Below, piece by piece: positions 1-29,668 of a stretch of DNA of 39,030 nucleotides; the stretch's first letter is position 1; the number at the start of each line of letters is the position of its first letter. The position numbers were made by a program, and so were the translations under genes. The notes under the pieces were generated by a model. That model worked only from the letters and a program-made list of their open reading frames with translations, did not search any database and was not told where the DNA came from. The stretch covers positions 1 through 39,030 of the forward strand of contig WQZD01000025.1 in assembly GCA_009780915.1 (NCBI GenBank). The letters are read 5' to 3'. Origin of the DNA: Propionibacteriaceae bacterium. Lineage in GTDB: Bacteria > Actinomycetota > Actinomycetes > Propionibacteriales > Propionibacteriaceae.

Positions 1-133
1 AAAGACCTCAACCTCAAAGACCTCAACCTCAAAGACCTCGACCTGACGACCATCATAACCACCCCCAACGTCGTGAACCCACCCACCCCCTACGTCGCGT
101 ACCCACCCCACTCCCCCACGTCGCGTACCCCCC
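1..133. repeat. Two adjacent short tandem repeat tracts at the window edge
   Basis: Positions 1-45 hold three copies of a 15-nt unit beginning aaagacctcaacctc; the third copy has two changes. From about 62 to 133 follow three imperfect ~24-nt units sharing the core acgtcgcgtaccc. The first tract would read as repeated Lys-Asp-Leu-Asn-Leu in frame 1 and could be the tail of a protein encoded upstream of the window, but that frame runs on into the second tract and stops only at 172-174, so this is not certain. The second tract looks non-coding. Confidence 0.75.
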
Positions 134-171
134 GCAGGAACATGATAGAAACTAGATTCACAAAGATGTCG

Positions 172-183
172 TAGACTGGTGTC
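172..183 (+). promoter_or_regulatory. Probable leaderless promoter (-10 box) of the LacI-family gene
   Basis: TAGACT at 172-177 lies six bases before the ATG at 184, which would put the transcription start on or beside the start codon. There is no Shine-Dalgarno sequence in front of this ATG. No convincing -35 box is visible. The same -10/six bases/start arrangement recurs at three other genes in this window. Confidence 0.5.
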
Positions 184-3065: not shown

Positions 3066-3211
3066 GCCAGTCCCTTCCCTATCACGGATCACGAGCGTAC
3101 CAGACCCTGGAAGCAGACAGGCCCGCAGCGTGCCCTAGCCACCGGGACGCGGTCCTTGGCAACCCCTCCTGAAATGGACTAACGTGGCCTGCAACCGGGA
3201 AGGGGGCACGG

Positions 3212-4132
3212 ATGGGCTTCGCCGTCACGGCACAACAAGTGGCGCTCATGTTCGTGTTCATCCTCTTCGGCCTCGTCGGCGCGAAGAGGGGCTGGATCGG
3301 CCCGCAAGCCGTCACCGGCCTGACCAACATCCTCGTCTTCTTCGTCACGCCGGGCGTCATCATCCAAGCCTTCCACCGCCCCTTCACCCTCGACCGCCTC
3401 CACGACCTCGGGATCGTCGCCCTGATCGACTTCGTGGCCTTCCCCGTCATGATGGCCCTGGCCTGGGTCGTGTACGGGAAAGTCGTCGCCCCCGACCGGC
3501 GCCGGTCCCTGAGGTTCGGGCTGATCTACTCCAACGCCGGCTTCCTCGGCATCCCCTTGGCCCAGGCCCTGCTGGGCCCGGACGGGGTCTTCTTCGCCGT
3601 GATCTTCCTGGTGCCGTTCAACGTCTTCGCCTGGACCCAGGGCTGGTCCATGTTCACCTCCGAGCATGTCAGCATCGTCAAACAGTTGTTCTCCAACCCC
3701 GCGATCCCGGCGGTCCTGGTGGGGCTGGCCCTGTTCGCGTCCTCGCTGCCCCTGCCGGGGATCGTCGTCACGGGCCTGGGGTACCTCGCCGGAATGAACG
3801 CCCCGCTGTCCATGTTCGTCGTGGGCGCCAGTCTGGCGGCGGTCAGCCTGCGCACGGTGGTCGCCGACCCGTGGCTCTGGCTGGGCACGGCCATGCGCAA
3901 CCTGGCGATCCCCACCGTCGGGATCCTCGTCTTGTGGGCGGTCCCCCTGCCCCTGGTGGCCAAGCTGTCCATCCTCATCCCCCTGTCGTGCCCGGTCGCG
4001 ACGTACCTGGTCATGTTCTGCGTCAAACACGCGGTGGACGCCGATTTCTCGGCACGGCTGGTGAGCATGTCCACCCTGGCGTCGATCGTCACCCTGCCCG
4101 CCGCCGTGAGCCTGGGGTCAGCATTGTGGTGA
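3212..4132 (+). CDS. AEC-family (auxin efflux carrier-like) permease
   Basis: The 306-residue protein is almost wholly hydrophobic, with about ten predicted membrane spans arranged as two repeats of five around a central loop, as in the AEC/BASS-fold transporters. The start VALMFVFILFGLVGAKRGW and the segment SNAGFLGIPLAQALLG (Asn-Ala-Gly-Phe-Leu-Gly) are typical of bacterial AEC carriers. Characterised members export or exchange organic acids such as malate or malonate, or other small anions; the substrate here cannot be read from sequence. An AAGGGGG ribosome site lies about seven bases before the ATG. It is followed after 77 bases by the ABC exporter genes, which have their own promoter. 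Confidence 0.85.
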   Translation: MGFAVTAQQVALMFVFILFGLVGAKRGWIGPQAVTGLTNILVFFVTPGVIIQAFHRPFTLDRLHDLGIVALIDFVAFPVMMALAWVVYGKVVAPDRRRSLRFGLIYSNAGFLGIPLAQALLGPDGVFFAVIFLVPFNVFAWTQGWSMFTSEHVSIVKQLFSNPAIPAVLVGLALFASSLPLPGIVVTGLGYLAGMNAPLSMFVVGASLAAVSLRTVVADPWLWLGTAMRNLAIPTVGILVLWAVPLPLVAKLSILIPLSCPVATYLVMFCVKHAVDADFSARLVSMSTLASIVTLPAAVSLGSALW

Positions 4133-16735: not shown

Positions 16736-17635
16736 TCAGGCCGCGCCGCGGGAACGCGCGCGGCGCACCATGTCCCAGCTGAGAACGACCAGAGCCGCCC
16801 AGACCAGGCCGAAGCCGACCCAGCGGACCACGGGCATGTGCTCGTGGAAGACGAGGACGCCGATGAGGAACTGCATGATGGGCGTCACGTATTGGATGAA
16901 CGCCAAGGTGACCAGATTGAGCCGCGCGGCGCCGACCGCGAAGAGGAGCAGGGGGATGGCCGTGACCACGCCGGTCGTCGCCAGGAGGAGGGAGTACGCC
17001 GGAGACACGGTCGTGAAGGTGCCGCGCCCGAGGAGTTCGATCACGACGATGTACCCGACAGACACCGGGGCGAGCGCCAGCGCCTCGACGCCGAGGCCGA
17101 TGACCGGCGACGCGCGGTGGCCGACGCGGTTCTTCGCCAGGGAGTACGCGCCGAAGGACGCGGCCAGCCCCAGGGAGATCCACGGCACGCGGCCCAGCCC
17201 GATGACGATCACCAGGACGGCGGCGACCCCGATCAGGAGGGCGACCAGTTGGGCGGTGCGGACCTTCTCCCGTACGACGACGATCGCGAGCAACACGGTG
17301 ACGAGGGGGTTGATGAAGTACCCGAGGGCGCCGTCGACCACCCGGTCGGTGGCGACGGCGTAGATGTAGATCAGCCAGTTGAGGCTCACCAGCACCCCGG
17401 CGCCCAGCAAGGTGGCGACGAGCCCCCGGTCCGCGACCACGGAGCGCACCTTCCCCCAGGCGCCGACCACGGTGACGCCGATGACGCAGAACACGAGAGT
17501 CCACGCGATGCGGTGGGCGACGATCTCCACGGCGCCGCTGCGGGAGAGCAGATGGAAGTACAGCGGGAAGACCCCCCACAGCCCGTGCGCGAGGAAGGCG
17601 CTGGCCAAGCCCTTCTCGTCCGTTCTCTGCTCCAC
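16736..17635 (-). CDS. rarD: RarD-like permease (EamA/DMT superfamily)
   Basis: This 299-residue protein with ten hydrophobic segments fits RarD, an EamA/drug-metabolite family member of about 296 residues in E. coli whose substrate is not established. The start [22 protein letters not shown] and the segment [15 protein letters not shown] are characteristic of RarD. GTG at 17635 is chosen: upstream extension adds only non-conserved sequence, and a -10 box (TACACT on the minus strand, 17642-17647) sits six bases before it, suggesting leaderless transcription. It is divergent from tnaA with a 177-bp shared control region. Confidence 0.85.
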
Positions 17636-17647
17636 GGGTCGAGTGTA
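17636..17647 (-). promoter_or_regulatory. Probable leaderless promoter of the RarD-like gene
   Basis: On the minus strand TACACT (17647-17642) is followed by six bases and the GTG at 17635. No Shine-Dalgarno sequence is present. The -35 region is weak. Confidence 0.5.
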
Positions 17648-17690
17648 CGCGAGCGCGGGGCGCGCTCTCAGCCATCCCACACTAAACTTT

Positions 17691-17709
17691 CTGTTGATAT
17701 TTTCAACAG
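17691..17709. promoter_or_regulatory. Perfect palindromic operator candidate before tnaA
   Basis: CTGTTGA-tattt-TCAACAG: 7-bp perfect arms with a 5-nt A/T spacer, in an otherwise GC-rich region. It overlaps the tnaA -35 box, so a bound dimer would compete with polymerase. A regulator is encoded at the end of the same operon (21303-22055) and is a natural candidate, but this is inference. Confidence 0.65.
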
Positions 17710-17721
17710 GGCGTGTAAACT
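17694..17721 (+). promoter_or_regulatory. tnaA operon promoter
   Basis: TTGATA (17694-17699) and TAAACT (17716-17721) with a 16-nt spacer. The transcript would have a leader of about 85 nt containing hairpins CTGGCC/GGCCAG (17735-17751) and GAGTGC/GCACTC (about 17765 and 17786). No Trp-containing leader peptide like E. coli TnaC was found. Confidence 0.55.
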
Positions 17722-17812
17722 TATGCTCACGATCCTGGCCACGGGGGCCAGATCCCGTCACGACGAGTGCCAACCACCGCTGTCAGCACTCATGTTCATA
17801 GAGGAGCAACTG

Positions 17813-19192
17813 ATGAAGTACATCGCCGAACCCTTCAAAATCAAAATGGTCGAGCCCCTGCGCATGACCACCCGCGAAGACCGCCAAGAAGCCATCAAGA
17901 AGGCCTTCTACAACGGTTTCGCCCTCAAAGCCGAGGACGTGTACATCGACCTGCAGACCGACTCCGGGACCGGAGCGATGAGCAATGCCCAGTGGGCCGG
18001 CATGATGATGGGCGACGAGTCGTACTCGGGCGCCCGCAGCTACTACCACCTCATGGAAGCGGCTGAGGACATCTTCGGGTACCGCTACAACCAGCCGGTC
18101 CACCAGGGCCGCGCCGCCGAGAAGGTCGTCTTCCCGGCGCTGACCAAGCCAGGCCAGTACTGGCTGTCCAACACCTTCTTCGACACCACGCGCGGCCACG
18201 TCGGCCTCGCCGGCGGGCGTCCGGTCGACATCGTCTGCCCGGAGGGCCTGGACACGACCACGTACGCCGACTTCAAGGGAGACGCGGACGTCGAGGGCAT
18301 GCGCGCCTTCATCCAGGAGCACGGCGCGGAGAACGTGGCCGGCATCGTGATGACCATCACCAACAACTCGGTCGGCGGCCAGCCGGTGTCCGTGGCGAAC
18401 ATGAGGGCCGTGCGCGCGCTCGCCGACGAGTACGGGCTGCTGCTCATCATCGACGCCGCCCGCTTCGCCGAGAACGCCATGTTCATCAAGATGCGCGAGC
18501 CGGAGTTCGCCGACGCCTCCATCAAGGAGATCACCCGCGAGACCTTCTCCTACGGGGACATGTACACGATGAGCGCCAAGAAGGACGCCATCGTCAACAT
18601 GGGCGGCATGCTCGGGGTGCGCGACAACGACGAGCTGGCCGAGAAGATCAAGTCCTTCGTCATCCCCTTCGAGGGCTACCTCACCTATGGCGGCTTGGCC
18701 GGGCGCGACCTCGAAGCCCTGGCCATCGGCCTCGAAGAGGGGCTGGACGAAGACTACCTGCGGTACCGCTTGGGCCAGTCCCAGTACCTCGCGGCCCGCT
18801 TCGAGAAGGCGGGGATCCCCTTCCAGAACCCCGTCGGCGGGCATGGCGTGTTCATCGACGCCGGCAAGCTGCTGCCCCACATCCCGTGGCACCAGTTCCC
18901 CGGCCACGCTCTGGCCGTCGAGCTCTACATCGAAGCCGGCATCCGCTGCTGCGACATCGGCTCCCTGCTCATGGACCGCGATCCGGTCACCGGCGACGCC
19001 CAGCAGGCGCCCGCCGAGTTCACACGGCTCGCCATCCCCCGCCGGGTCTACACTCAGGCCCACCTGGACGTCGTCGCCGACGCCCTCGAAGCCATCAAGG
19101 CACGCGCCGACCAGGTCCCCGGATACGAGATCACGTGGGAACCCAAGGTCTTGCGCCACTTCACCTCCCACCTTCGACCGGTCACCGCATGA
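17813..19192 (+). CDS. tnaA: Tryptophanase (L-tryptophan indole-lyase)
   Basis: This 459-residue PLP enzyme cleaves L-tryptophan to indole plus aminoacrylate, which becomes pyruvate and ammonia. It belongs to the beta-eliminating lyase family shared with tyrosine phenol-lyase. The PLP lysine is K257 in MSAKKDA; LLTDSGT-like [11 protein letters not shown] (47-57) and HQGRAAE (97-103) bind cofactor phosphate and substrate. Specificity residues favour tryptophanase: Asp124 where tyrosine phenol-lyase has Thr124, and Ile382 where that enzyme has Arg381. Some surface segments (for example [10 protein letters not shown]) resemble tyrosine phenol-lyase more, so activity on tyrosine should not be ruled out. 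GAGGAG at 17801-17806 fixes the start. It heads a four-gene operon with a permease, RidA and a regulator. Confidence 0.87.
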
Positions 19193-19210
19193 CAGGTCGG
19201 ACGGGCGCCT

Positions 19211-19240
19211 CGGCTCAGGCGGGCCACCCCGCCTGAGCCG
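19211..19240 (+). terminator. Intercistronic hairpin between tnaA and the permease
   Basis: Perfect 13-bp stem CGGCTCAGGCGGG/CCCGCCTGAGCCG with a 4-nt loop, 18 bases after the tnaA stop. No run of T follows, so it is likely a partial terminator or mRNA stabiliser that lowers downstream expression relative to tnaA. Confidence 0.65.
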
Positions 19241-19266
19241 GGCCCCTCGTTCCCCTAGGAGCATCC

Positions 19267-20718
19267 ATGTCTAGTGAACTCTCTTCAGCTGCCAACGACG
19301 CCGTCAACGAAGAACTCAAAGAAATCGCCGGCATGCAACGCCGCCTCAAGAACCGCCACATCCAGATGATCGCCCTCGGCGGCTGCATCGGGACGGGCCT
19401 GTTCTACGGTTCGGCGGAAGCCATCGGCATGGCGGGTCCCGCCATCATCCTCGCCTATCTCGTGGGAGGCGCAGCGATCTTCTTCGTCATGCGCGCCGTC
19501 GGCGAGATGAGCGTGCGCACCCCCGTGGCCGGCGCCTTCACCCACCACGCCTACGCCAACTGGGGCAACCGTGCCGGTTTCGTCTCCGGATGGAACTACT
19601 GGTTCAACTACATCCTGGTGTCGATGGTCGAACTGGCCGTCGTCGGCCTCTATCTGCACTATTGGCTGCCCGACTTCCCCGCGTGGGCGACGGCGGCCAT
19701 CTGCCTGGTCCTGATCACGGCGGTCAACCTGATCGGCGTGAAGTCCTTCGGCGAGTTCGAGTTCTGGTTCGCCATGATCAAGGTCATCGCCGTCATCGCC
19801 ATGATCGTCGTCGGCCTGATCATCGTCATCGCGGCCATCCACAACCCGGGCACCCCGGTCCCGACCTTCTCCCATCTGGTCGATCCCTCCACGGGCGGAT
19901 TCCTGCCCTTCGGGCTCCTCAGCCAGGTGAACGGCGCCTGGGTGGGCCTGGTCATGGCCCTCGTGGTCGTGATGTTCTCCTTCGGCGGCGTCGAACTCGT
20001 GGCGATCACCGCTGGCGAGGCCGACAACCCCGGCAAGACCATCCCTCGGGCGATCAACCAGATCGCCTGGCGTATCCTGATCTTCTTCGTGGGCGCCTTG
20101 ACCGTCATCATGGCCGTCGTGCCCTGGCAGTCGATCAACGGCCAGATGAGCCCGTTCGTCCAGATCTTCGACTACGTCGGGATCAAGGCGGCCGCGGCCC
20201 TGCTCAACTTCGTGTGTATCACGGCCGTGCTGTCCGTGTACAACTCGGCCGTGTACTCCAACGGGCGCATGCTCCACTCGCTCGCCCACCAGGGCAACGC
20301 GCCGAAGTTCCTGGGCAAGGTCGCCAAGAACGGCGTCCCCATGGCCGGGGTCCTGGCCTCGGCCGGCATCACCGTCATCGCGGTCGTCGTGGTCTTCCTG
20401 TGGCCCGAGTTCGCCTTCAACTACCTGATGTCCATCGCCCTGATCGCCGGCATCATCAACTGGATCATGGTGATGATCACCGAGATCAAGTTCCGTAAGC
20501 GGATCGGCCCCGAGGAGGTCTCGAAACTGACGTTCAAGCTGCCGTTCCAGCCGTACAGCAACTATCTCGTGATCGCCTTCCTCGCGTTTGTGGTGGTGAT
20601 GATGTGCTTCTCCCCCGGGTACCGCATCGCCGTGATCGTCGGGCCGATCTGGCTCGCCGTCCTCCTCATCGCCTACCAAGTGAAGAAGACCGGCCAAAAG
20701 GTGGCCGACCGCACCTGA
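19267..20718 (+). CDS. Amino-acid permease (APC superfamily, AAT family)
   Basis: This 483-residue protein has about twelve membrane spans and the marks of the amino-acid transporter family: LKNRHIQMIALGGCIGTGLFYG at the start of span 1 (unwound GxGxG-like substrate site), GEMSVRTPVAGAFTHHA, and FGGVELVAITAGEADNPGKTIPRAI after span 6. Relatives import aromatic amino acids, GABA, lysine and others with protons. Its place immediately after tnaA suggests uptake of tryptophan or another aromatic substrate (inference). An AGGAG site precedes the ATG. The first ~30 residues are a polar cytoplasmic leader. Confidence 0.9.
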   Translation: MSSELSSAANDAVNEELKEIAGMQRRLKNRHIQMIALGGCIGTGLFYGSAEAIGMAGPAIILAYLVGGAAIFFVMRAVGEMSVRTPVAGAFTHHAYANWGNRAGFVSGWNYWFNYILVSMVELAVVGLYLHYWLPDFPAWATAAICLVLITAVNLIGVKSFGEFEFWFAMIKVIAVIAMIVVGLIIVIAAIHNPGTPVPTFSHLVDPSTGGFLPFGLLSQVNGAWVGLVMALVVVMFSFGGVELVAITAGEADNPGKTIPRAINQIAWRILIFFVGALTVIMAVVPWQSINGQMSPFVQIFDYVGIKAAAALLNFVCITAVLSVYNSAVYSNGRMLHSLAHQGNAPKFLGKVAKNGVPMAGVLASAGITVIAVVVVFLWPEFAFNYLMSIALIAGIINWIMVMITEIKFRKRIGPEEVSKLTFKLPFQPYSNYLVIAFLAFVVVMMCFSPGYRIAVIVGPIWLAVLLIAYQVKKTGQKVADRT

Positions 20719-20741
20719 CAACCAGACTCACGCTATCCTGA

Positions 20742-20789
20742 GAACCGGGCGAAGGGTCCCGGCCCCCGGCCAAGCCCTTCGCCAGGTTC
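20742..20789 (+). other. Long imperfect stem-loop between permease and ridA
   Basis: GAACC-g-GGCGAAGGG (20742-20756) pairs with CCCTTCGCC-a-GGTTC (20775-20789): 14 pairs with one G/A mismatch around an 18-nt GC-rich loop. It lies 24 bases after the permease stop with no T-tract, and about 80 bases before ridA. It is probably another mRNA processing or partial termination point. Confidence 0.6.
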
Positions 20790-20867
20790 CCGGGACGTGG
20801 GTCAGCACATACCTCGGCGCCTTCATCGCCGATGAGAAGAGCAATTCCAGAAAAGGAGAACTGATTC

Positions 20868-21263
20868 ATGACATTGGTCAAGCAGACAGCCATTGCGACC
20901 GACCAGGCCCCAGCGGCGATCGGCCCCTACTCCCAGGCGGTACGGGCAGGCGACTTCATCTACATCTCAGGCCAACTGCCGATCAACCCCGCCGTGGGCG
21001 CCATCGAGGCCGAGGACGCCGCAGGGCAGGCCGCCCAGGCGATCGACAACCTCGAAGCGATCCTTCGCGAGGCCGGCCACAGCCTGGCGAACATCGTCAA
21101 AGCCACCGTCTTCCTGACTGACATCGCCGATTTCGCGGCCGTCAACCAGGTGTACGCCGCCCGGTTCACATCCGACCCCAAGCCGGCACGCGCCGCCTTC
21201 CAGGTCTCGGCCCTGCCGGCCGGGGCCGCCGTCGAGATCGAAGCCGTCGCGTACGTGGGCTGA
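20868..21263 (+). CDS. ridA: RidA-family imine/enamine deaminase
   Basis: RidA (131 residues) hydrolyses reactive 2-aminoacrylate/iminopropionate to pyruvate and ammonia. The family hallmarks are present: IGPYSQAV (18-25), YISGQLPINP (32-41), NLEAIL, and Arg108 in KPARAAF, equivalent to the catalytic Arg105 of E. coli RidA, with the closing VEIEAVAYV. Length is typical. Tryptophanase releases aminoacrylate, so this gene's position in the tnaA operon makes immediate biochemical sense. An AAAAGGAG site precedes the ATG. Confidence 0.93.
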   Translation: MTLVKQTAIATDQAPAAIGPYSQAVRAGDFIYISGQLPINPAVGAIEAEDAAGQAAQAIDNLEAILREAGHSLANIVKATVFLTDIADFAAVNQVYAARFTSDPKPARAAFQVSALPAGAAVEIEAVAYVG

Positions 21264-21302
21264 CACCCGACCCCCTCCGCCCCCAATCCGAGCAGGTGAA
21301 CC

Positions 21303-22055
21303 ATGACCGCCAAGGACCTCCCCCACATTCGGGCCGTCGAACTGAGCGCATCGCAAAGCGCTGAACGCGACGGCATCATGGCGACATTGGCCCAACTGGT
21401 CGAGCCGCTGGCACGGGTCCTGCCCGGATCGGCGGAGGTGGTCCTCCACGACTTGGCCCGGCTGCCCCATTCGATCATCGCCTTGGAGGGGACCCTGACG
21501 GGGCGGTGCGTGGGCGGTCCCGCCACGGACATGCTCCTGCAGTCGGCGGTCCGGGGCGACCTGACCACCCGCATCGGGTACACCGGGCACGGCATCGACG
21601 GCCAGGAACTGCGCTGCTCCACGCTCATCTTCCGGACCAGCCAGGGCACCCCGGTGGCGGCGTTGTGCATCAACTGCGACACGAGCGGATGGCGCATCGT
21701 CGCCTCCCTCGCCTCGGCCATGCTGCCCGACCACGCCCTGGGGGGCGATTCGCAGGGCTCGGCGGAGCAGACGCCCGCCGAACATTTCGTCGGGGACGTG
21801 GACGAGTTGGCCGACGACCTGATCGTACGGGCCATCGCCTCGCTGGACGTCCCCGTGCCCCTCATGCAGAAGCGCCACAAGATGGCGGTGGTCTCCGAAC
21901 TGAAGTCGTCAGGGTTCTTCATCCTGAGGGAGTCCGTCGAGCGAGCCGCCTCCGCCCTCGGCGTGACCCGCTTCACCGTGTACAACTACCTCAAAGAACT
22001 CGACCGGGACCACGCGATCTCCCCCGACGCCGCCGATCACGGCGAACCGAACTGA
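21303..22055 (+). CDS. YheO-type PAS/HTH transcriptional regulator
   Basis: The 250-residue protein has the two domains of the YheO/DauR family. A PAS_6-like sensor covers about 20-140 (LAQLVEPLARVLPGSAEVVL, followed by CSTLIFRTSQGTPVAALCIN), and a HTH_22 DNA-binding domain lies in the last 60 residues (VERAASALGVTRFTVYNYLKEL). Known members control amino-acid catabolism, for example D-arginine use by DauR. It is last in the tnaA-permease-ridA operon, 40 bases after ridA with an AGGTGA site, and is therefore the likely local regulator responding to an amino acid or its imine. A variable acidic linker (about 145-175) separates the domains. Confidence 0.85.
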   Translation: MTAKDLPHIRAVELSASQSAERDGIMATLAQLVEPLARVLPGSAEVVLHDLARLPHSIIALEGTLTGRCVGGPATDMLLQSAVRGDLTTRIGYTGHGIDGQELRCSTLIFRTSQGTPVAALCINCDTSGWRIVASLASAMLPDHALGGDSQGSAEQTPAEHFVGDVDELADDLIVRAIASLDVPVPLMQKRHKMAVVSELKSSGFFILRESVERAASALGVTRFTVYNYLKELDRDHAISPDAADHGEPN

Positions 22056-22079: not shown

Positions 22080-22619
22080 TCACCGCGCATCCGTGGGCAT
22101 CGCCCCACGCCCTGCTCGCCGTACCCCCTGAGCCACCAACCACGCCACACACTCGTCCCGATTCTGCGGCGTCACCGTGAGCAGCGTCACCGACGGGTGG
22201 GCCCGGATCGCGTCGAGGAACGCCGTCCGCTTGGGCTGGACGACCCCGAGGACGGGCACGTCCCCCTCCAGGCGACGCAGCACCGCCTCCTGGAAGAGGA
22301 CCGCCGAGGACTCCAAGGCCCCCACCTCGTCCATGATGATGACATCGCGACGCCCGCACGCGTCGAGGATCCGGACCCCGTCGATGTCGAAGACACCCGC
22401 GACACCATCCACCGCCACGGCACGGCCCTGGTCGCGGCACGCCACATCGACCCCCGCGCCGGGCGGGGAATCGTACGCGGACAGCGTCAGGCGGCGCCCG
22501 GCGTCCCCATCGACCCAGGTGGTCACGAACCCGTCAGCCCCCAGCCCGGACTGCGCCACGAACCGCTGGATGACCGTGGTCTTGCCGACCTGTTTCGCGC
22601 CTGTCAAGAAGACGTGCAT
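22080..22619 (-). CDS. THEP1-type nucleoside-triphosphatase
   Basis: The 179-residue protein is a small P-loop NTPase of the NTPase_1/THEP1 family. Walker A, GAKQVGKTT, lies within the first 17 residues, and the Walker B segment DVIIMDEVGALES is followed by a strand that ends in VLGVVQPKR, a common THEP1 pattern. In vitro these enzymes hydrolyse NTPs; bacterial members often sit beside metal or oxyanion importer genes and their cellular role is unclear. The ATG at 22619 is chosen because it places the P-loop near the N-terminus and a -10 box (TAGGAT, minus strand, 22632-22627) stands seven bases before it; an alternative ATG is at 22628. It is divergent from a FecCD-class importer, suggesting a joint role. 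Confidence 0.8.
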   Translation of the reverse strand: MHVFLTGAKQVGKTTVIQRFVAQSGLGADGFVTTWVDGDAGRRLTLSAYDSPPGAGVDVACRDQGRAVAVDGVAGVFDIDGVRILDACGRRDVIIMDEVGALESSAVLFQEAVLRRLEGDVPVLGVVQPKRTAFLDAIRAHPSVTLLTVTPQNRDECVAWLVAQGVRRAGRGAMPTDAR

Positions 22620-22656
22620 GCAGCCCATCCTAGTCGGAGAACACCCGAAACCACCC

Positions 22657-22684
22657 TTGACTATTCCCCGCCAGCGGCTAGACT
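22657..22684 (+). promoter_or_regulatory. Promoter of the FecCD-class importer operon
   Basis: TTGACT (22657-22662) and TAGACT (22679-22684) separated by 16 nt. Transcription should begin near 22691, leaving a leader of about 118 nt before the ATG at 22809. Confidence 0.7.
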
Positions 22685-22690
22685 GGAAAA

Positions 22691-22808
22691 AACTGTTACC
22701 GTGCCTTTCGGTCTAAGGGCGATGCCTATGAGCGACTGGCCTGAACGTAGACGTTCACGGGGTCATGGTGGAAACGACATGGCCTTCCATGCTTGAGAAG
22801 GGAACAGG
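22691..22808 (+). promoter_or_regulatory. Candidate riboswitch-like leader of the importer operon
   Basis: The leader can fold in two exclusive ways. CTGTT (22693-22697) and CCTT (22704-22707) can pair with AACAG (22803-22807) and AAGG (22798-22801), which form the ribosome binding region, closing a multi-branch structure. Alternatively GCCTTT (22703-22708) pairs with nearby AAGGGC (22715-22720), freeing the site. Inside are a 6-bp hairpin TGAACG/CGTTCA (22742-22757) and two competing partners, CATGG at 22764 and 22778, for CCATG at 22787. I cannot assign a class; molybdenum-cofactor type is one guess because BtuCD-like importers with THEP1 neighbours can carry molybdate or tungstate. Confidence 0.5.
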
Positions 22809-23822
22809 ATGAAGAGGGCGCCTGGTCGGCGCGGGTGGGTCATGCCCGCGCTCGCGACGCTATTGGTCGCCGCGATCCTGGGGTCGTTCGCCATCGGCCG
22901 TTTTCCCATCGGGCCGTACGAGTTGCTCGGCGCGGTCGCCCCCCGCTCCTGGGGGATCGGTGAGGTCACCGACCAGATGAGGGCCATCGTGCTCAACGTC
23001 CGCGTCCCCCGCATCCTCCTGGCATGCCTGGTGGGGTGCTGTTTGTCGGGCGCGGGCGCCTCCTACCAAGGGGTCTTCCGCAACCCCATGGCCTCCCCCG
23101 ACTTCCTGGGCGCGTCCTCGGGGGCGGCGACGGGCGCCGCCTTGGCGCTGCTCCTCCAGTTCCCCGCGCAAGTCGTCATGCTCGTGGCCTTCGCCTCCGG
23201 GCTGGCCACCATCGGCATCGTCATGGCCATCGGACAAGCCGCGCCCGGCCATCGCCTCCTGCGGATCATCCTGGCCGGGATCATGGTCTCGTCCTTGTTC
23301 AACGCCGCGACCTCGTTCATCAAACTGGTGGCCGACCCCACGGACATCCTGCCCGAGATCACCTACTGGCTGATGGGGTCCCTGGCGAAGACGAGACTCG
23401 ACACCGTGGCGTTCGTCCTCGTTCCCATGGTGGTGGGCCTGGTCCCGCTGGTCCTCCTGCGGTGGCGCGTGAACCTGTTGACCCTGTCTGACGCGGAAGC
23501 CCGCACGATGGGCGTGGACGTGTCACGGGTACGGTGGGTGGTCATCGTGTGCGCCACCTTGGTGACGGCGGCGTGCGTGTCGGTCTCGGGTTTGATCGGC
23601 TGGGTGGGACTCGTCGTCCCCCACCTCGCGCGGCGACTCGTGGGCAACGATTACCGCCGCCTGCTTCCCGTGAGCATGGTCGGCGGCGCCGTGTTCCTCC
23701 TGCTGGTGGACGACGTGTCCCGCAACCTGTTGGCCACCGAGATCCCGTTGGGCATCCTGACCGCCGTGATCGGCGCGCCGTTCTTCCTCTGGATGATCAC
23801 ACGCAGGAACGAGGCGATATGA
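22809..23822 (+). CDS. ABC importer permease, FecCD/BtuC class
   Basis: The 337-residue permease has about ten membrane spans and the FecCD signatures: LNVRVPRILLACLVGCCLSGAGASYQGVFRNP near the start, SPDFLGASSGAATGAALAL, and GLIGWVGLVVPHLARRLVG, which contacts the ATPase. The family imports siderophores, haem, cobalamin and, in MolBCA of Haemophilus, molybdate/tungstate. Its stop overlaps the ATPase start (ATGA). The ribosome site AAGGG at 22798-22802 is part of the potential switch in the leader. The genes order permease, ATPase, binding protein is complete for a type II importer. Confidence 0.92.
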   Translation: MKRAPGRRGWVMPALATLLVAAILGSFAIGRFPIGPYELLGAVAPRSWGIGEVTDQMRAIVLNVRVPRILLACLVGCCLSGAGASYQGVFRNPMASPDFLGASSGAATGAALALLLQFPAQVVMLVAFASGLATIGIVMAIGQAAPGHRLLRIILAGIMVSSLFNAATSFIKLVADPTDILPEITYWLMGSLAKTRLDTVAFVLVPMVVGLVPLVLLRWRVNLLTLSDAEARTMGVDVSRVRWVVIVCATLVTAACVSVSGLIGWVGLVVPHLARRLVGNDYRRLLPVSMVGGAVFLLLVDDVSRNLLATEIPLGILTAVIGAPFFLWMITRRNEAI

Positions 23823-24589
23823 GCATCGAGGTGAGGAACCTGTCCTTCGCGTACGAGGACCACGGGGTTCTCCACGACGTCAGTTTCACCGTCTCGGACG
23901 GGGAACTCCTCGCGGTCCTCGGTCCCAACGGGGTGGGAAAGTCCACGTTGTTCTACTGTCTGTCCGGGCTTCATCGCCCCCGACAGGGGACGGTCACCCT
24001 CGACGGTCGCGTGATCTGGGACATCGCCCCGAAACGGCTGGCCCGCCAGATCGCGTACGTCCCCCAGTCCCACGACCCGACATTCAATTACTCGGTGGCC
24101 GACATGGTCCTCATGGGGACGACGGCACGCGTCGGTGGGTTCTCGACGCCCGGCCCCGAGGAGGTGGCCATCGCCCGTGACGCGCTGGACCGCGTGGGCA
24201 TCTCCCACCTGGCGCGTCGAGGCTACCAACAGATCAGTGGAGGGGAACGCCAACTGACCCTCATCGCCCGCGCGCTCGCCCAGCAGGCGGGGGTCGTCGT
24301 CATGGACGAGCCGACCGCCAACCTCGATTTCGGCAACCAACTGCGCATCCTGTCGACGGCCAAGGAGTTGGCCGGCCGGGAGCACACCGTCATCCTCTCC
24401 ACGCACAACCCCGACCACGTCTTCTGGTTCGCCGACCGCGTCCTGGCCCTGAGCGGCGGGCGGGTGGTGGCCGACGGCCCGCCACGATCCGTCCTGACGC
24501 CCGATCTGATCGAGACCCTCTACGGCGTGCGCGTGCGCCTGATCGAAACCGAGGAAGGACGCGTCAGTTGTCAACCAACATTGACTTAG
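23819..24589 (+). CDS. ABC importer ATPase, FecE/BtuD class
   Basis: This 256-residue ATPase powers the importer. Walker A is GPNGVGKST (35-43), Q-loop Q83 lies in YVPQSHDPTFNYSVADMVLMG, the signature is ISGGERQ (139-145), Walker B VVVMDEP (159-165) and the switch histidine H196. The C-terminal DLIETLYGVRVRLIE segment is typical of FecE/BtuD-type subunits. It starts inside the permease stop codon (ATGA), so translation is coupled, and the binding-protein gene follows after about 90 bases. Confidence 0.93.
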   Translation: MSIEVRNLSFAYEDHGVLHDVSFTVSDGELLAVLGPNGVGKSTLFYCLSGLHRPRQGTVTLDGRVIWDIAPKRLARQIAYVPQSHDPTFNYSVADMVLMGTTARVGGFSTPGPEEVAIARDALDRVGISHLARRGYQQISGGERQLTLIARALAQQAGVVVMDEPTANLDFGNQLRILSTAKELAGREHTVILSTHNPDHVFWFADRVLALSGGRVVADGPPRSVLTPDLIETLYGVRVRLIETEEGRVSCQPTLT

Positions 24590-24682
24590 CCTGGACCTGC
24601 GACCATCGGCGGATCCAGGCCGAGACGCGGGACGCGCACCGTGCCCGCGTGCGCGACTCTCACAGAAAGGACACCGCGCGCC

Positions 24683-25774
24683 ATGACTAGATCACACACA
24701 TCGAAGACAATCATCGCCCTCGTCCTGGGGCTCGGCCTGACGCTCCTGTCGTCGTGTACGACCAGCCCCACGGATCCCCCCTCGCCGACCGCCACAACGC
24801 CGGTGTCATTCACCGACGACGCGGGGCGCACCGTCGAGGTCCCCGCCCCCTCCACCCTCACCCGCGTCTCACCATCGGGGGCCCTGTCCCAGATGTTCCT
24901 GATGGCCATCGCCCCGGACCTGATGGTCAGTCTCGGGTCCGCGTACTCCGCGTCCGACGCCGCGTACATCCCGCCTGACGTGGCGGCCCTGCCAGCCGTC
25001 GGGGAACTCTACGGGTCGGCCACCTTGAACTACGAGACGGTCGCCGCCCTCCACCCCCAACTGGTCGTCGACGTGGGCGAGCCCAAGGGCACGATCGTCG
25101 AGGACATGGACACGATCACCGCGAACCTCGCCGTGCCCGCCGTCCACATCACCGCGACCCTGACGTCGACCCCCGACGCGTTCCGCGAGTTGGGACGCCT
25201 GCTGGGACGTGAGGACAGGGCGGAGCAGTTGGCCTCGTTCTGCGAGCAGATCCTCGCCCAGAGCGACGACGTCATGGCGAAGGTCGGCGACGCCAAGCTC
25301 TCTGCCGTGTACTTGCTGGGCAGCGACGGCCTCAACGTCATCCCGAAGGGCTCCTACCACGCCGAGGTGCTCGACGAGGTGACGACCAACATAGCAGTCG
25401 TCCCCAGCCCCTCCTCGTCCGGGATGGGCAACCAGACCGACCTGGAGCAGATCAACGTGTGGAACCCCGACGTCATCCTCTTCGCCCCCGCCAGCGCCTA
25501 TCCCGCGGTGACGTCGGATCCGGCGTGGAGCAGCCTGTCGGCGATCAAGGACGGGCAGTACTACGAGACCCCCGAAGGCCCGTACAACTGGTTCGGCCAG
25601 CCCCCGTCCATCAACCGCTACCTGTCCTTGATGTGGCTGACCAAGCTCCTGTACCCCCAGTACGCCACCTTCGACCTGCGCGCCGAGGTCACCTCGTACT
25701 ACTCGCTGTTCTACGGGCACACCCTGACGCCGGCCGAGTACGCGACGCTGACCGAAAGGTCCCTTCCGCAGTGA
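24683..25774 (+). CDS. Substrate-binding lipoprotein of the FecCD-class importer
   Basis: The 363-residue protein has a lipoprotein signal ending in LLSSC (lipobox, Cys25), so it should be anchored to the outer face of the cell membrane. The mature part is a cluster A-III (FecB/BtuF/TroA-like) binding protein: VSFTDDAGRTVEVPAP at the start, TLNYETVAALHPQLVVDVG in the first lobe, and a helix-rich second lobe with PYNWFGQPPSINRYLSLMWL. That last motif is found in binding proteins of unassigned or molybdate/corrinoid-like importers rather than classical siderophore ones, as far as I recall. The ATG at 24683 is chosen over 24641 because the signal peptide starts there; AAAGGA lies upstream. Confidence 0.87.
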   Translation: MTRSHTSKTIIALVLGLGLTLLSSCTTSPTDPPSPTATTPVSFTDDAGRTVEVPAPSTLTRVSPSGALSQMFLMAIAPDLMVSLGSAYSASDAAYIPPDVAALPAVGELYGSATLNYETVAALHPQLVVDVGEPKGTIVEDMDTITANLAVPAVHITATLTSTPDAFRELGRLLGREDRAEQLASFCEQILAQSDDVMAKVGDAKLSAVYLLGSDGLNVIPKGSYHAEVLDEVTTNIAVVPSPSSSGMGNQTDLEQINVWNPDVILFAPASAYPAVTSDPAWSSLSAIKDGQYYETPEGPYNWFGQPPSINRYLSLMWLTKLLYPQYATFDLRAEVTSYYSLFYGHTLTPAEYATLTERSLPQ

Positions 25775-25940
25775 CCCGTCCCGCGGCGACCCGTCCCGCC
25801 CATCAAGACTCGGGACGACAATGCAGTGAGCGGCTTGTACAGTAGGCGACAGCCGGTCATAGGTGACGCGCATCGACGATGATCGAGGGGGTCGCGCCAA
25901 CCACAAGGGAGGAGACCGGCACGAACCGAAAGGAACGAGC

Positions 25941-28295
25941 GTGACAACACTCACCAGGAAGGCTTTCGCCTCACTGACCGCAGTGGCTCTCGGATTGACG
26001 GGGTTGACCCTGTCCGCGCCCACCGGCGTGGCGGCGCCCACCGAGCAGCCCGTGCACATCTTCACCTTCAACGACTTCCATGGCCGCATCAAGACCTCGG
26101 GCGTCGCATGGGCGTACACCCTCGAGCAAGCCGTGCTGGCTGACTCCGCCAACTCGATGGTGGTCAGCGCCGGCGACAACATCGGCGCGTCCGAGTTCGA
26201 GTCCGCCATCGCGAAGGACGACCCGACGATCCAGTTGCTCAACGACATCGCCACCACACCGGGCATCAACTTCAAGGCGTCGGCGGTGGGCAACCACGAG
26301 TTCGACCAGGGGCTCTCCGACTTGCAGAACCGCGTCATCGGTGGCGTGAACCCCGATGGCAGCGCCGCGCCGGTCAAGGCCGCGTGGACCTACCTGGGCG
26401 CGAACGTCGTCTCGAAGGCCACCGGCGACCCGGTGCTCGACCCGTACTACATCTACACCCTCGACAACGGGATCACCGTCGGCGTCATCGGTGCGGTCAC
26501 CCGCGAAGCCGCGACCCTGGTCAGCCCCGTTGGGATCTCCACCATCGAGTTCACCGATCCGGTCGCCGCCGTCAACACGTACGCCGACCAGCTGAAGGCG
26601 TCCGGGGACGCCGACGTCGTCGTCGCCGTGTACCACGACGGCGCGTCGGTGGCGACCTCGCTGGACGACGCCACGGCAGCGTCCTCGACCTTCGCCGCCA
26701 TCGTCAACGGCACCGACGCGAACGTCGACGCCATCGTCAACGGCCACACCCACCTGACGTACAGTTGGATCGACGCGAAGGGCCGCCCGATCGTCGAGGC
26801 GGGCTTCTACGGCTCGGCCGTGGGCCGCATCGACCTCACCGTCGACACCGACACGATGACGGTCACCTCGGCCACCGCGTCCACCATCCCCACCGTGAGC
26901 GCCGACCAGGTCGACCTCAGCCTCGGGTCGATGCAGACGATCTCGGACCACATCGCCCTCGCCCTGGCCGACGCGGACCATCTGTCCACCCAGATCGTGG
27001 GCCAGATCTCCATGGACGCGACCACCGCCCACACCCTGGGCGCCTGGCAGAACGGCACCTTCGCCTCCCAGCCCGCTCTGACCTATCAGAACACGGGCAC
27101 GGCGGTGCGGGACGACCGGGCTGACGAGTCGAGCCTCGGCACCATGGTGGCCGACGCCTATCTGGACGCGGCCCAGTCCAACCCCCAGATCGGCGCCGAC
27201 ATCGGCATCGTGAACGCCGGCGGCGGACTGCGCGCCGAGTTGCTGTACGGCACCGACGGCTCGATCACCTACGCGGCGGCCAACTCCGTCCAGCCCTTCG
27301 CGAACAACTTGTGGACCATCGAACTGACCGGCGCCCAATTCAAGGAGTTCCTGGAGGAGCAGTGGCAGACCGACGCGACCGGCGCGAGGCCCTCGCGTCC
27401 CTTCCTGGCGACGGCGGTGTCCTCCAACGTCACCTACACCGTCGACACCGACCAGCCGCTGGCCGATCCGTGCACACTCGAGGACGGATGCTCCTGGAAC
27501 GACCCCCGTAGCCACATCACCTCGGTGGCCATCAACGGGTTCCCCCTGGACCCCGATCAGATCTACAAGATCATGACCGTCTCCTTCCTCACCGCCGGCG
27601 GTGACAACTACCGCGTGATGACCCAGGGGACGAACGCGCAGGACACCGGCCTGCTCGACCGCGACGCCTGGATCGCGTACCTCCAGAAGCAGTCGGACGC
27701 GGGGCCCATCGCCCCGAGCTTCGCCCGCCCCTCGGTGGTCGTGAGCAACCTCACTCCGGCGACGGCGCCCATGGACATCATGACGGTGACCGCTGGCTCC
27801 CCGGTGACGGCGTCCCTGTCCCGCCTGGACCTGACGTCCTTGGGAAGCCCCGCGAACACGACGCTGGTCACCATGCTGGCGCCGGCCGACGCGACCGATC
27901 CGTCTCAGGTGACTGTGCTGGCGACGAGCCCCATCACGGCGCCCGGTGACGCGGCCGGTTGCGCGGCGGCAGGAGTCCCCACGGATCTGAATCCCGCGTC
28001 GGACGGGTGCGCCCGCGTGGATGTCACCATCCCCGCCGACACCCCGGCCGGTGACTACTTCCTGGTGAGCCAGGCGTTCCCGAGCGAGACCTGGGTCTGG
28101 ACGGCCATGACGGTCGAGGCGGCCGCCACCACTGGTGACGACTCCGGAACGCCCGAGGGAACTGTGACCCCGCCGCAGACCGTCCCCTCCGGCGGTCAGG
28201 CCGCATCGGCCCCCTGGCTGCCGATCAGCGCCATGCTGGTGCTCATCGGCGTGGGAGTCGTCCTCGGTTCTCGTCGAGCGATCCTCACCCGGTGA
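25941..28295 (+). CDS. Exported 5'-nucleotidase/2',3'-cyclic phosphodiesterase-type phosphoesterase
   Basis: This 784-residue enzyme belongs to the UshA/YfkN family of two-metal phosphoesterases that release nucleosides and phosphate outside the cell. A Sec signal ends near GVAA (29-32). The N-terminal metallophosphatase domain shows FNDFHGR, SAGDNIGASEFES, VGNHEFDQG and NGHTHLTYS. The C-terminal substrate domain has NAGGGLRAELLYG and VQPFANNLWTIELTGAQ. Beyond it lie about 150 residues of beta-rich sequence, a Gly/Ser/Thr/Pro linker, one membrane span and SRRAILTR, so the protein is probably anchored in the cell envelope; no LPxTG motif is present. GTG at 25941 is chosen for the AAAGGA site and the signal peptide. 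It may simply follow the importer rather than share its role. Confidence 0.9.
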   Translation: MTTLTRKAFASLTAVALGLTGLTLSAPTGVAAPTEQPVHIFTFNDFHGRIKTSGVAWAYTLEQAVLADSANSMVVSAGDNIGASEFESAIAKDDPTIQLLNDIATTPGINFKASAVGNHEFDQGLSDLQNRVIGGVNPDGSAAPVKAAWTYLGANVVSKATGDPVLDPYYIYTLDNGITVGVIGAVTREAATLVSPVGISTIEFTDPVAAVNTYADQLKASGDADVVVAVYHDGASVATSLDDATAASSTFAAIVNGTDANVDAIVNGHTHLTYSWIDAKGRPIVEAGFYGSAVGRIDLTVDTDTMTVTSATASTIPTVSADQVDLSLGSMQTISDHIALALADADHLSTQIVGQISMDATTAHTLGAWQNGTFASQPALTYQNTGTAVRDDRADESSLGTMVADAYLDAAQSNPQIGADIGIVNAGGGLRAELLYGTDGSITYAAANSVQPFANNLWTIELTGAQFKEFLEEQWQTDATGARPSRPFLATAVSSNVTYTVDTDQPLADPCTLEDGCSWNDPRSHITSVAINGFPLDPDQIYKIMTVSFLTAGGDNYRVMTQGTNAQDTGLLDRDAWIAYLQKQSDAGPIAPSFARPSVVVSNLTPATAPMDIMTVTAGSPVTASLSRLDLTSLGSPANTTLVTMLAPADATDPSQVTVLATSPITAPGDAAGCAAAGVPTDLNPASDGCARVDVTIPADTPAGDYFLVSQAFPSETWVWTAMTVEAAATTGDDSGTPEGTVTPPQTVPSGGQAASAPWLPISAMLVLIGVGVVLGSRRAILTR

Positions 28296-28317
28296 CGCTC
28301 ATCTGATCATCAGGGCG

Positions 28318-28350
28318 AATGCCCTGGGCGCCTGGTGCGTCCAGGGCATT
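28318..28350 (+). terminator. Terminator after the 5'-nucleotidase gene
   Basis: AATGCCCTGG (28318-28327) pairs with CCAGGGCATT (28341-28350), a perfect 10-bp stem with a 13-nt loop, followed by TTCCTTG. It lies between two convergent genes. Three head-to-tail copies of ttgagtc (28354-28374) follow directly. Confidence 0.75.
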
Positions 28351-28384
28351 TCCTTGAGTCTTGAGTCTTGAGTCGTGGGGGCCC

Positions 28385-29668
28385 TCAGGCGTCCGGGGTC
28401 GGCGACGGTATGGCCGAATCCTCCGCCTCGTTGGTCAGGGCGGCAAGCTCGCGATGGGCGGCTTCGGCGGCCTCGGGGGTGACCCCGGGCTTCTGCACCT
28501 TGGCGGTCAGCTTGCGGATACGCTTGGCCCTGGCGAGCAGGTTGGACAACCGCATGGGGTCCTGGTCGGACGTGGTGGGATTGGACGCGATGAACGCGTT
28601 GAGCCAGCGCGCGTGGGGGTCGATGTCGATGAAGAGCGTCTTCATCAGCAAGGTCGCGGGGATGGCGAGGATGGCGCCGAGGGGACCGAGGATGTACGCC
28701 CAGATCAGCAGGGACAGCACCGCCATCGTCGGGGTGATGCCCACGGCGTCGCCAGCGACCTTGGGTTGGATGAACGTCTGGATCACCGTGTTGAACACGA
28801 AGTACCCGACCACGACCCACAGAGCGGTCAGGGGGTCGTTGGACAACAACGCCATGATCACCGGCGGGACCAGACCGATGATGAAGCCGATGTTCGGGAT
28901 GTAATTCGTCACGAAGGAGAAGACCGCCCAGATGAGGGCCATGGGCACGTCGAGGGCCGCCAGGAGGATCCAGTTGCACACCGCCACGATCAGGCCGAAG
29001 ACGGTGGTCACGACCCAGTACTTCCTCGTGCCGCGCGCGAACGAGGACAGTGCCCACGCTAAGGTCGGGTTGTGTCGCTCCCCCAGCCGTTGCATACGCT
29101 CGGAGAAGCCGACGGAGTCGATGACCATGAAGATCAGGATCATCAAGATCATGAAGATCAGCCCGATGATGCTCGTCAGCGAGGAGGTGATCCCGACCAG
29201 AGTCGACACGATGGTGGTGACGGAGATCCCGCGCAACTGGTCGAGCGCGCCCTGGACCACGGCGTTGGTGTCGATGTTGTTCCGGGTGGCGAAGTCGGTG
29301 ATTCTGGAGACGAGGGAGTAGAACTGCGAGGAGTACTTCGGCAGTTCTTGGACGAGCCGTGCGATGGTCCAGCCCATCGACCAGATGAGCGCGCCGAGCA
29401 GGCCGATGGCGACGATGCCGGCGGCGATGGAGGCCAGGAAGCGGGGGATGATCTTCGCCAGGGCCCGTTGGATCGGCCACACGACGATGACGAGGTTGAG
29501 CGCCATGAACGCGGACGCCAGAGTCGAGCGGATCGGCTGGACTCCCTGCGCCGCGATGAAGACGGCCGCCAGCCCCAGCAAGAGCACCAACGCGCGCGGC
29601 ATGAGCGCTTGAGGTGTGGCAGGGGTCGGCTCGTCTTGCGGGGTCTTGTCCGGTTCTACGATCGACAT
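28385..29668 (-). CDS. AI-2E-family (PerM-like) membrane transporter
   Basis: The 427-residue protein has the AI-2E family layout: two pairs of spans in the N-terminal half, a soluble segment rich in helices (about 100-210), then more spans including FVTNYIPNIGFIIGLVPPVIMALL and the IQPKVAGDAVGITPTMAVLSLLIWAYILGPLGAIL motif, the family's best marker. Members include the autoinducer-2 exporter TqsA and Na+(Li+)/H+ antiporters; the substrate is not predictable. A polar N-terminus of about 25 residues and a charged C-terminal tail are likely cytoplasmic. No clear Shine-Dalgarno sequence precedes the ATG. Confidence 0.88.
   Translation of the reverse strand: MSIVEPDKTPQDEPTPATPQALMPRALVLLLGLAAVFIAAQGVQPIRSTLASAFMALNLVIVVWPIQRALAKIIPRFLASIAAGIVAIGLLGALIWSMGWTIARLVQELPKYSSQFYSLVSRITDFATRNNIDTNAVVQGALDQLRGISVTTIVSTLVGITSSLTSIIGLIFMILMILIFMVIDSVGFSERMQRLGERHNPTLAWALSSFARGTRKYWVVTTVFGLIVAVCNWILLAALDVPMALIWAVFSFVTNYIPNIGFIIGLVPPVIMALLSNDPLTALWVVVGYFVFNTVIQTFIQPKVAGDAVGITPTMAVLSLLIWAYILGPLGAILAIPATLLMKTLFIDIDPHARWLNAFIASNPTTSDQDPMRLSNLLARAKRIRKLTAKVQKPGVTPEAAEAAHRELAALTNEAEDSAIPSPTPDA

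Follow-up and report, generated by a model that had tools for sequence, protein, structure and literature searches.

A Moco-class riboswitch leader ahead of a FecCD-type ABC importer in a Propionibacteriaceae genome without detectable Moco synthesis

The window analysed here, a stretch of 39,030 nucleotides from the draft genome of a Propionibacteriaceae bacterium, contains the genes of a FecCD-type ABC importer (permease, ATPase and substrate-binding protein) behind a structured RNA leader, with a gene for a THEP1-like NTPase in the divergent orientation and a gene for a 5'-nucleotidase/UshA-like protein downstream (Table 1). The first-pass annotation of this DNA had named a metal-type importer as the target of the leader, and the Pfam matches to a FecCD permease, an ABC ATPase and Peripla_BP_2 agree with it. 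The NCBIfam models that match the permease and the binding protein all stay below their cut-offs, as do those for the ATPase among 25 of its 188 matches. The nearest solved relative of the permease is HI1471 (MolB; E 1.2e-63), followed by haem (HmuU), hydroxamate and B12 (BtuC) permeases. The solved relatives of the binding protein are 4pag (1.3e-29), 4ovk and 4hn9, and then HI_1472 (MolA; 1e-10), so that the kinship to MolB expected of a MolBCA-type system is present in the permease, while the binding protein is not closest to MolA. The binding protein also has a PYNW..PPS..R stretch which is missing from MolA in the alignment.

The remaining genes around the importer were considered as well. 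The 5'-nucleotidase was rejected as a part of the importer module, no homologue of it being found in the loci with related importers; speculatively, a UshA-like protein of this kind could trim dinucleotide cofactors before their uptake. Upstream of the THEP1-like gene, positions 16838-22055 hold ORFs for an amino-acid permease, a RidA-like protein and a YheO-type PAS/HTH regulator, along with one which we take to be a tryptophanase-type lyase.

Table 1. Positions of the leader, its helices and the surrounding genes in the window.
Feature	Position	Strand	Remarks
Promoter-like site, TTGACT-16 nt-TAGACT	22657..22684	+	consensus match only; 9 of 12 positions match
Moco riboswitch RF01055	22685..22819	+	72.9 bits; gathering score 36
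P1, 5' strand	22693..22700	+	partner 22800-22807; A-G mismatch 22698/22802
P2 with internal loop	22703..22740	+	22703-22713/22730-22740; model alignment; 3 of 11 pairs non-standard
P3	22742..22757	+	22742-22746/22753-22757; model alignment
P4 with GAAA tetraloop 22771-22774	22760..22785	+	22760-22770/22775-22785; model alignment; 1 of 11 pairs non-standard
P5	22786..22796	+	22786-22787/22795-22796; model alignment
Shine-Dalgarno AAGGG	22798..22802	+	G22800-22801 in the P1 3' strand; 6 nt to the ATG at 22809
FecCD-type ABC importer permease	22809..23822	+	Pfam FecCD, 294 bits
ABC importer ATPase	23819..24589	+	Pfam; start ATG and permease stop overlap (ATGA)
Substrate-binding protein Peripla_BP_2, probably a lipoprotein	24686..25774	+	alternative start GTG 24641
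THEP1-like NTPase (NTPase_1), divergent	22080..22628	-	Pfam, 83.6 bits
5'-nucleotidase/UshA-like protein	25863..28295	+	NCBIfam matches all below cut-off; operon membership uncertain

The RF01055 leader and its ribosome site

The first-pass annotation had described a ligand-controlled leader, possibly responsive to a molybdenum or tungsten cofactor, to a corrinoid or to something new, and had proposed a scan with Rfam models. When the whole window was scanned with cmscan against Rfam 15, the single match was RF01055, the family of the Moco/W-cofactor riboswitch (E = 6.8e-16), which spans the model over its full length (positions 1-135). A rescan of the 301 bases at 22600-22900 up to E = 1 gave no Rfam family besides RF01055, and the E. 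coli moaA leader (L086), our positive control, scored 103.6 bits with the same model. The leader almost certainly belongs to the Moco riboswitch class, with the ligand inferred from the family. A corrinoid switch was dropped, and a new riboswitch class, refuted by the full-length match, has next to no probability.

All of the RF01055 traits tested, namely the P1, P2, P4 and P5 helices and a GNRA tetraloop with its receptor, are found in the leader. Standard pairs make up 5 of 6 model positions in P1, 8 of 11 in P2, 5 of 5 in P3, 10 of 11 in P4 and 2 of 2 in P5, and two of the outermost three model pairs are non-standard. The model pairs of P1 (22695-22700/22800-22805) can be stretched by sequence out to 22693/22807. 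The internal loop of P2 reads CUAAG/UAUG and resembles a tetraloop receptor, these being what we take to be the letters of that motif. In the published description of the class, a GNRA tetraloop on P4 is likewise matched by a receptor in P2 (PMC2408646). P3, a mark of Moco rather than of the tungsten cofactor (Tuco), is present here and is lacking in one leader (L045) among those of the related importers; section 11 of the same paper associates RNAs bearing P3 with Moco and, with few exceptions, those lacking it with the tungsten cofactor. By its model alignment the leader is thus a further member of the known RF01055 family, of the P3-containing type, as suits the molybdenum or tungsten cofactor suggested at first pass.

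Ensemble prediction for 22691-22819 gives the four outer P1 pairs probabilities of 0.98-0.99 and the three inner ones 0.53-0.62, falling to 0.91-0.92 and 0.49-0.58 when the ensemble is extended to 22691-22870; the chosen pairs of P2, P3 and P4 reach mean probabilities of 0.96-0.99 in the shorter ensemble and 0.94-0.99 overall. The folding energy is ordinary for the composition (z = -1.31, with 23 of 200 shuffles equally good), and the case for the leader therefore rests on the covariance model and not on energy. The covariation proposed as a check at first pass was examined over the 135 model columns in eight leaders, namely that of the window, one each from L013, L029, L045 and L060, two from L067 and that of E. 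coli, with L002 left out. Both sides had changed in 33 of 42 pairs, against 12-16 when the 3' partners were slid by 1-3 positions, and 280 of 326 cells were paired (86%; 46 of 48 in P1) against 35-44% when slid, although these counts are inflated in favour of RF01055 since the rows were aligned by the model itself.

Not all of the pairings described earlier survive in this fold. Two competing pairings had been proposed for a CCTTT stretch, one with AAGGGC and the other with the Shine-Dalgarno; each has an ensemble probability of 0.001 or less, and in the RF01055 fold CCTTT falls in P2 opposite 22735-22739, with two of five positions non-standard. The supposed competition of two CATGG copies for one CCATG dissolves into aptamer helices, because the CATGG copies fall within the two arms of P4, and CCATG within P5 and its loop. 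The CTGTT/AACAG closing pair, in contrast, proves to be P1 itself and takes in part of the Shine-Dalgarno. The good promoter seen ahead of the leader corresponds to the promoter-like site of Table 1, which is the only one in 22300-23100 (shuffles give 0.0, sd 0.2) and in 22600-28500 (0.5, sd 0.8). This site would place the transcription start near 22691 and the whole aptamer in the transcript.

The aptamer, P1 and the partly buried Shine-Dalgarno can be read from the alignment and the predicted fold, as had been proposed for a translational switch with the ribosome site hidden in the closing stem. Sequestration of part of the Shine-Dalgarno by the aptamer-closing stem is the trait of a translational OFF switch, and in section 5 of PMC2408646 the E. 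coli ribosome site lies in P1, from which its authors inferred repression on ligand binding. By analogy, plentiful Moco would bind the aptamer, stabilise P1 and hide the Shine-Dalgarno, turning translation of the importer off; when Moco is scarce, P1 would open and the permease, ATPase and binding protein would be made. Here the direction of control is taken from the family and co-transcription from the gene spacing. Overall, the leader is very probably a Moco riboswitch exerting feedback on a molybdenum- or tungsten-related importer. Since such a switch would shut the importer when the cofactor is plentiful, it seems plausible that the importer feeds the Moco pool.

The host genome contains this one copy of RF01055. 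The family is rare among the relatives of the host, being found in 2 of 198 genomes of the Propionibacteriaceae and in 1 of 19 in the genus with filters strict enough to lose some weak matches. In a permease tree, the window copy falls in a group of seven with six rows from Oscillospiraceae (Bacillota), with support of 100/96. This grouping, together with a host family nearly free of RF01055, points to a horizontal gain of the importer. The other copy in the family (L002 1163-1329 (-), G144:C349, 73.6 bits) precedes an ECF/CbiO-type transporter ATPase, which scores 289 bits with TIGR04520 (below the cut-off of 315) and 230 bits with the cbiO model TIGR01166 (above the cut-off of 212), and an apparent terminator hairpin with a T-run is folded between the two. 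This copy may be foreign, as it lies on a short contig in a bin that is 74% complete.

Molybdenum enzymes and the missing moa block in the host

The draft genome of the host (G000) comprises 2.78 Mb in 45 contigs and is 99.37% complete. It has no match to MoaC (PF01967), MoaA (PF06463) or MoeA_N (PF03453). A joined MoaC+MoeA query gave one weak match, on contig C6 (E 1.3e-5, 23.4 bits), where PF00994 also matches with 28.4 bits against a cut-off of 26.6. This match was rejected as a Moco synthesis gene, its best NCBIfam model being that of the divisome protein Glp (132.9 bits, cut-off 475) and MoeA_N having no match there. It adjoins ORFs which presumably encode relatives of 5-formyl-THF cyclo-ligase and a GNAT protein. 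Glp has been described as a repurposed MoeA (PMC11733289).

The nitrate reductase genes of the host are retained. The narG (1562 bits, cut-off 1084), narH (712, 524) and narI (194, 106) products all pass their NCBIfam cut-offs, and a NarK-like ORF stays below its own (214 vs 312). PF00384 has a second match besides narG, in an ORF that we assume to be related to NuoG; a joined XdhD+FdhF+YdhV query matched in two places only, best on this NuoG-like ORF (E 2.9e-11). NarG is open over 1221 codons. Its dN to G179 is 0.151, against 0.168 for G190 and 0.185 for G187, and its dN to G180 is 0.242, slightly above the 0.237 of G190 and the 0.222 of G187. The replacement rate of the host NarG thus appears to be about that of the four MoaA-bearing relatives compared, with the caveat that silent sites are near saturation and most of the divergence may predate a loss of the moa genes.

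In four relatives from the genus of the host (G179, G180, G187 and G190), 2487-2564 bases separate the end of narI from the start of mobA, and the genes between them are moaC-, moaB- and moaA-like in all four and moaE-like in three. In G180, where MoaA passes its model cut-off and mobA was taken to start with an ORF whose NCBIfam matches to mobA lie below cut-off, mobA is followed by moeA (187 bits with the MoaC+MoeA query; best model MoeA_actino, 328 bits, below cut-off), by modA above its cut-off and by a modB-like ORF above the modB cut-off. The moa genes also follow narI in G182, on a contig without a mobA match, and in G184, the sixth MoaA-bearing relative, the moa block is away from the close narG match. 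Across the genus, MoaA occurs in 6 of 19 genomes; nine have a PF00384 match of more than 140 bits, and the MoaA-less ones among these are the host, G173 (69% complete) and G174 (64%).

About 20 bases separate narI from mobA in the host, and the junction is not an assembly gap since both genes lie on a single contig (C15; L093); the mobA label rests on similarity to the copies of the relatives and on a weak model match (22 bits, cut-off 152). C15 ends inside mobA, in an array of repeats of 48 bp (16 codons). The search of contig ends covered 84 stretches, namely 40 contigs at each end, three small contigs over their full length and C15 at its other end. The C-terminal half of mobA was matched at the end of C9 alone, which also carries the 48-bp repeat in the reading frame found on C15 (L093 1-160; L163 1869-2000). 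Nine further ORFs scanned on C9 beyond mobA gave no match to any family of Moco synthesis. Among them are CutC, DUF3027, a regulator of the DtxR type and a Xan_ur_permease protein, which scores 19.9 bits with the MOT1 family of molybdate transporters, below the cut-off of 30. A contig gap as the whole reason for the missing moa genes is weakened by the finding that the C9 end carries the rest of mobA; it is possible that an unassembled stretch within the array, or a contig lost elsewhere, holds them. The modA and modB of G180 have no match on the 84 stretches or on L093, and modC matched three ABC ATPases.

These observations also bear on the idea that nar and mobA are decaying remnants in a host that makes no Moco, and that the riboswitch and importer are a recent horizontal gain, expressed constitutively and with no physiological link to them. 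The grouping of the importer with Oscillospiraceae copies, the near absence of RF01055 from the rest of the family and the repeat array in mobA would suit it. It is rendered improbable by the open NarG reading frame, by narG, narH and narI scores above cut-off, by a NarG replacement rate similar to that of the four MoaA-bearing relatives, by repeats whose length is a multiple of three and which stay in frame with mobA on both contigs, and by the intact aptamer.

Related importers and the likely cargo

Related importers were taken as the best 80 of 244 loci from one scan of genome contigs, and 50 of their genomes were searched for MoaA, which is present in 19 and absent from 31. MoaC follows the same division, occurring in 18 of the 19 MoaA-plus genomes (G224 being the exception) and in none of the 31 MoaA-less ones. 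A strong MoeA is found in three of the 31 (G198, G200 and G201, which hold L003, L005 and L006, among the nearest importers to that of the window), and five more have weak partial matches of 17-21 bits. These three markers frequently co-occur and are not independent. The joined XdhD+FdhF+YdhV query matches in 28 of the 31 MoaA-less genomes (none in G222, G223 and G243), and 27 have at least one match of at least 100 bits among those listed; such matches to molybdo- or tungsto-enzymes are evidence of homology, and Moco content is not proven by them. All of the 31 records are labelled MAG or uncultured, so that incomplete bins may contribute to the absence of MoaA. The five of the 50 records that are not labelled MAG, uncultured or Candidatus are all MoaA-plus.

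A scan of all 80 loci placed RF01055 immediately ahead of the related FecCD gene in five (L013, L029, L045, L060 and L067). Among the tested genomes it precedes the importer in none of the 31 MoaA-less and in three of the 19 MoaA-plus genomes (L013, L029 and L045), L060 and L067 being outside the tested set. We therefore discarded the riboswitch as a mark of the importers of Moco-less hosts. In L067, one Moco riboswitch lies at 75-235 (-) and another at 3683-3828 (+), less than 4 kb away on the other strand, and one of the two stands before the importer. Another RNA, the ssnA motif RF03031, occurs beside ssnA-like genes at L018 320-367 (-) and L074 1106-1153 (-), near two Intestinimonas copies of the importer.

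Molybdenum-related neighbours were found at 20 of the 80 loci, including 13 of the 31 MoaA-less and 3 of the 19 MoaA-plus genomes, when the fetched flanks were searched with E. coli xdh, yqeB (XdhC family), yqeC, mocA, mobA, ssnA, fdhF, modE and moeA; the other 60 loci have none by these queries, some of them lying on short contigs. One locus, L043, encodes XdhB- and XdhC-type subunits, a permease-like ORF and a MocA-like nucleotidyltransferase, whose stop overlaps the FecCD start. This nucleotidyltransferase (3078-4001), as well as one in L052 (7371-8381), is fused to a ModE-like domain; the models concerned match below their cut-offs, as do the XdhB- and XdhC-type models in L043. L052, from a genome outside the MoaA-searched set, combines the importer, THEP1 and MocA-like genes. 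THEP1 stands beside the importer in 20 of the 80 loci, 8 of them in MoaA-less and 7 in MoaA-plus genomes, and recurs there in Bacillota and also in Methanocorpusculum, with the divergent orientation that it has in the window. At L032, ORFs resembling a molybdopterin oxidoreductase and MobA lie beside the importer together with a divergent THEP1; as THEP1 precedes the MobA-like ORF there, it might, speculatively, help in the nucleotide tailoring of Moco.

Iron chelates and B12 are the usual cargo of the FecCD family. A cargo of iron siderophores, haem or corrinoids, with Moco sensed for another reason, would conform to this usual role and to the BtuC, FecC and F420-0 permease models of NCBIfam, which match the window permease below their cut-offs. 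It is very unlikely, given that Moco riboswitches and genes for molybdenum enzymes and their maturation recur beside this importer group.

The reading that we favour, with a probability of roughly 45%, is that the importer takes up finished Moco (or the tungsten cofactor) and that the riboswitch serves as its feedback valve. The host would have lost molybdopterin synthesis (moaCBEA and moeA), would keep its nitrate reductase, and would use mobA to tailor the imported cofactor; related importers may serve gut Bacillota that have enzymes of the xanthine dehydrogenase, formate dehydrogenase and AOR types and no MoaA or MoaC. This proposal is drawn from gene content and comparison. Against it count the occurrence of the riboswitch before three importers of MoaA-plus genomes and before none of MoaA-less ones, the MAG or uncultured label of every MoaA-less record, and a permease whose nearest solved relative is part of a molybdate transporter. 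Moco is also sensitive to oxidation (PMC9571131). Literature searches aimed at Moco uptake yield no bacterial Moco importer, as far as titles and the openings of abstracts show.

An ordinary MolBCA-like transporter of molybdate or tungstate, subject to the usual feedback by Moco and in a host whose Moco genes were missed by the assembly or by our searches, is a credible if tentative alternative. It draws on the closeness of the permease to HI1471, ahead of HmuU and BtuC, on the presence of MolA among the binding-protein matches, and on molybdate transporters being among the targets of Moco RNAs (PMC2408646). It also draws on MoaA being encoded in 19 of 50 importer genomes, including all five that carry no MAG, uncultured or Candidatus label and all three with a riboswitch before the importer, and on the modA and modB that follow the moa and moeA genes in G180. 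Several findings count against it: the host lacks a match to MoaA, MoaC or MoeA_N and has one weak match to the MoaC+MoeA query; the moa block is absent from its customary position, and the break at the end of C15 is matched by C9, on which mobA is followed by CutC, DUF3027 and further families unrelated to Moco synthesis; and the binding protein is nearest to 4pag and has a stretch missing in MolA. Without the MoaA, MoaC and MoeA enzymes, molybdate would be useless to the host for making Moco. Because nitrate reductase and mobA are kept while enzymes leading from molybdate to Moco are undetectable, we judge the cargo somewhat more likely to be the cofactor, in its finished or a molybdopterin form, than molybdate.

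Comparison with known systems

The leader corresponds to the Moco riboswitch RF01055 as described by Regulski et al. (2008; PMC2408646), with which it has in common P1-P5, the GAAA tetraloop of P4 and P3. As in RNAs of that description, the Shine-Dalgarno lies within P1 upstream of a transporter. The targets given there comprise genes for Moco synthesis, transporters of molybdate or tungstate and enzymes that use Moco or Tuco; the window differs in its FecCD-type importer and in a host without detectable Moco synthesis. The permease, in turn, finds its nearest solved relative in MolBCA of Haemophilus influenzae, a member of the same ABC importer sequence family (PMC7759655). Unlike in MolBCA, the binding protein is nearer to 4pag than to MolA, and use of molybdate by the host is not demonstrable. 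The E. coli moaA riboswitch is of the same family and likewise has its ribosome site in P1, although it controls the operon for the synthesis of its own ligand and scores 103.6 bits, whereas the window leader, at 72.9 bits, precedes an importer. A cofactor-sensing leader over a FecCD-family importer is known from the cobalamin riboswitch with BtuCDF. This is the layout proposed for Moco here, where import of Moco by such a system is putative.

In its gene content the host resembles the "orphan molybdoprotein" organisms of Peng et al. (2018; PMC6147048), which have molybdoenzymes and an incomplete Moco pathway; Table 2 of that study counts such cases, in which Moco-dependent enzymes are present, in 305 bacteria and 5 archaea. 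The explanations offered there are unsequenced genes, pseudogenes, new parts of the synthesis pathway and molybdenum-independent forms, and cofactor import is absent from those in the available text. The Moco-sensing leader, the B12-type importer and the moa block lost from between narI and mobA together make this system a concrete candidate for cofactor uptake. If the candidate holds, import of Moco could account for orphan molybdoproteins such as those reported in 2018 (PMC6147048), and genes for importers of this group would predict which gut anaerobes depend on their neighbours for Moco. Anaerobic communities would then share the cofactor as a "vitamin", traded in the same manner as B12 and haem.
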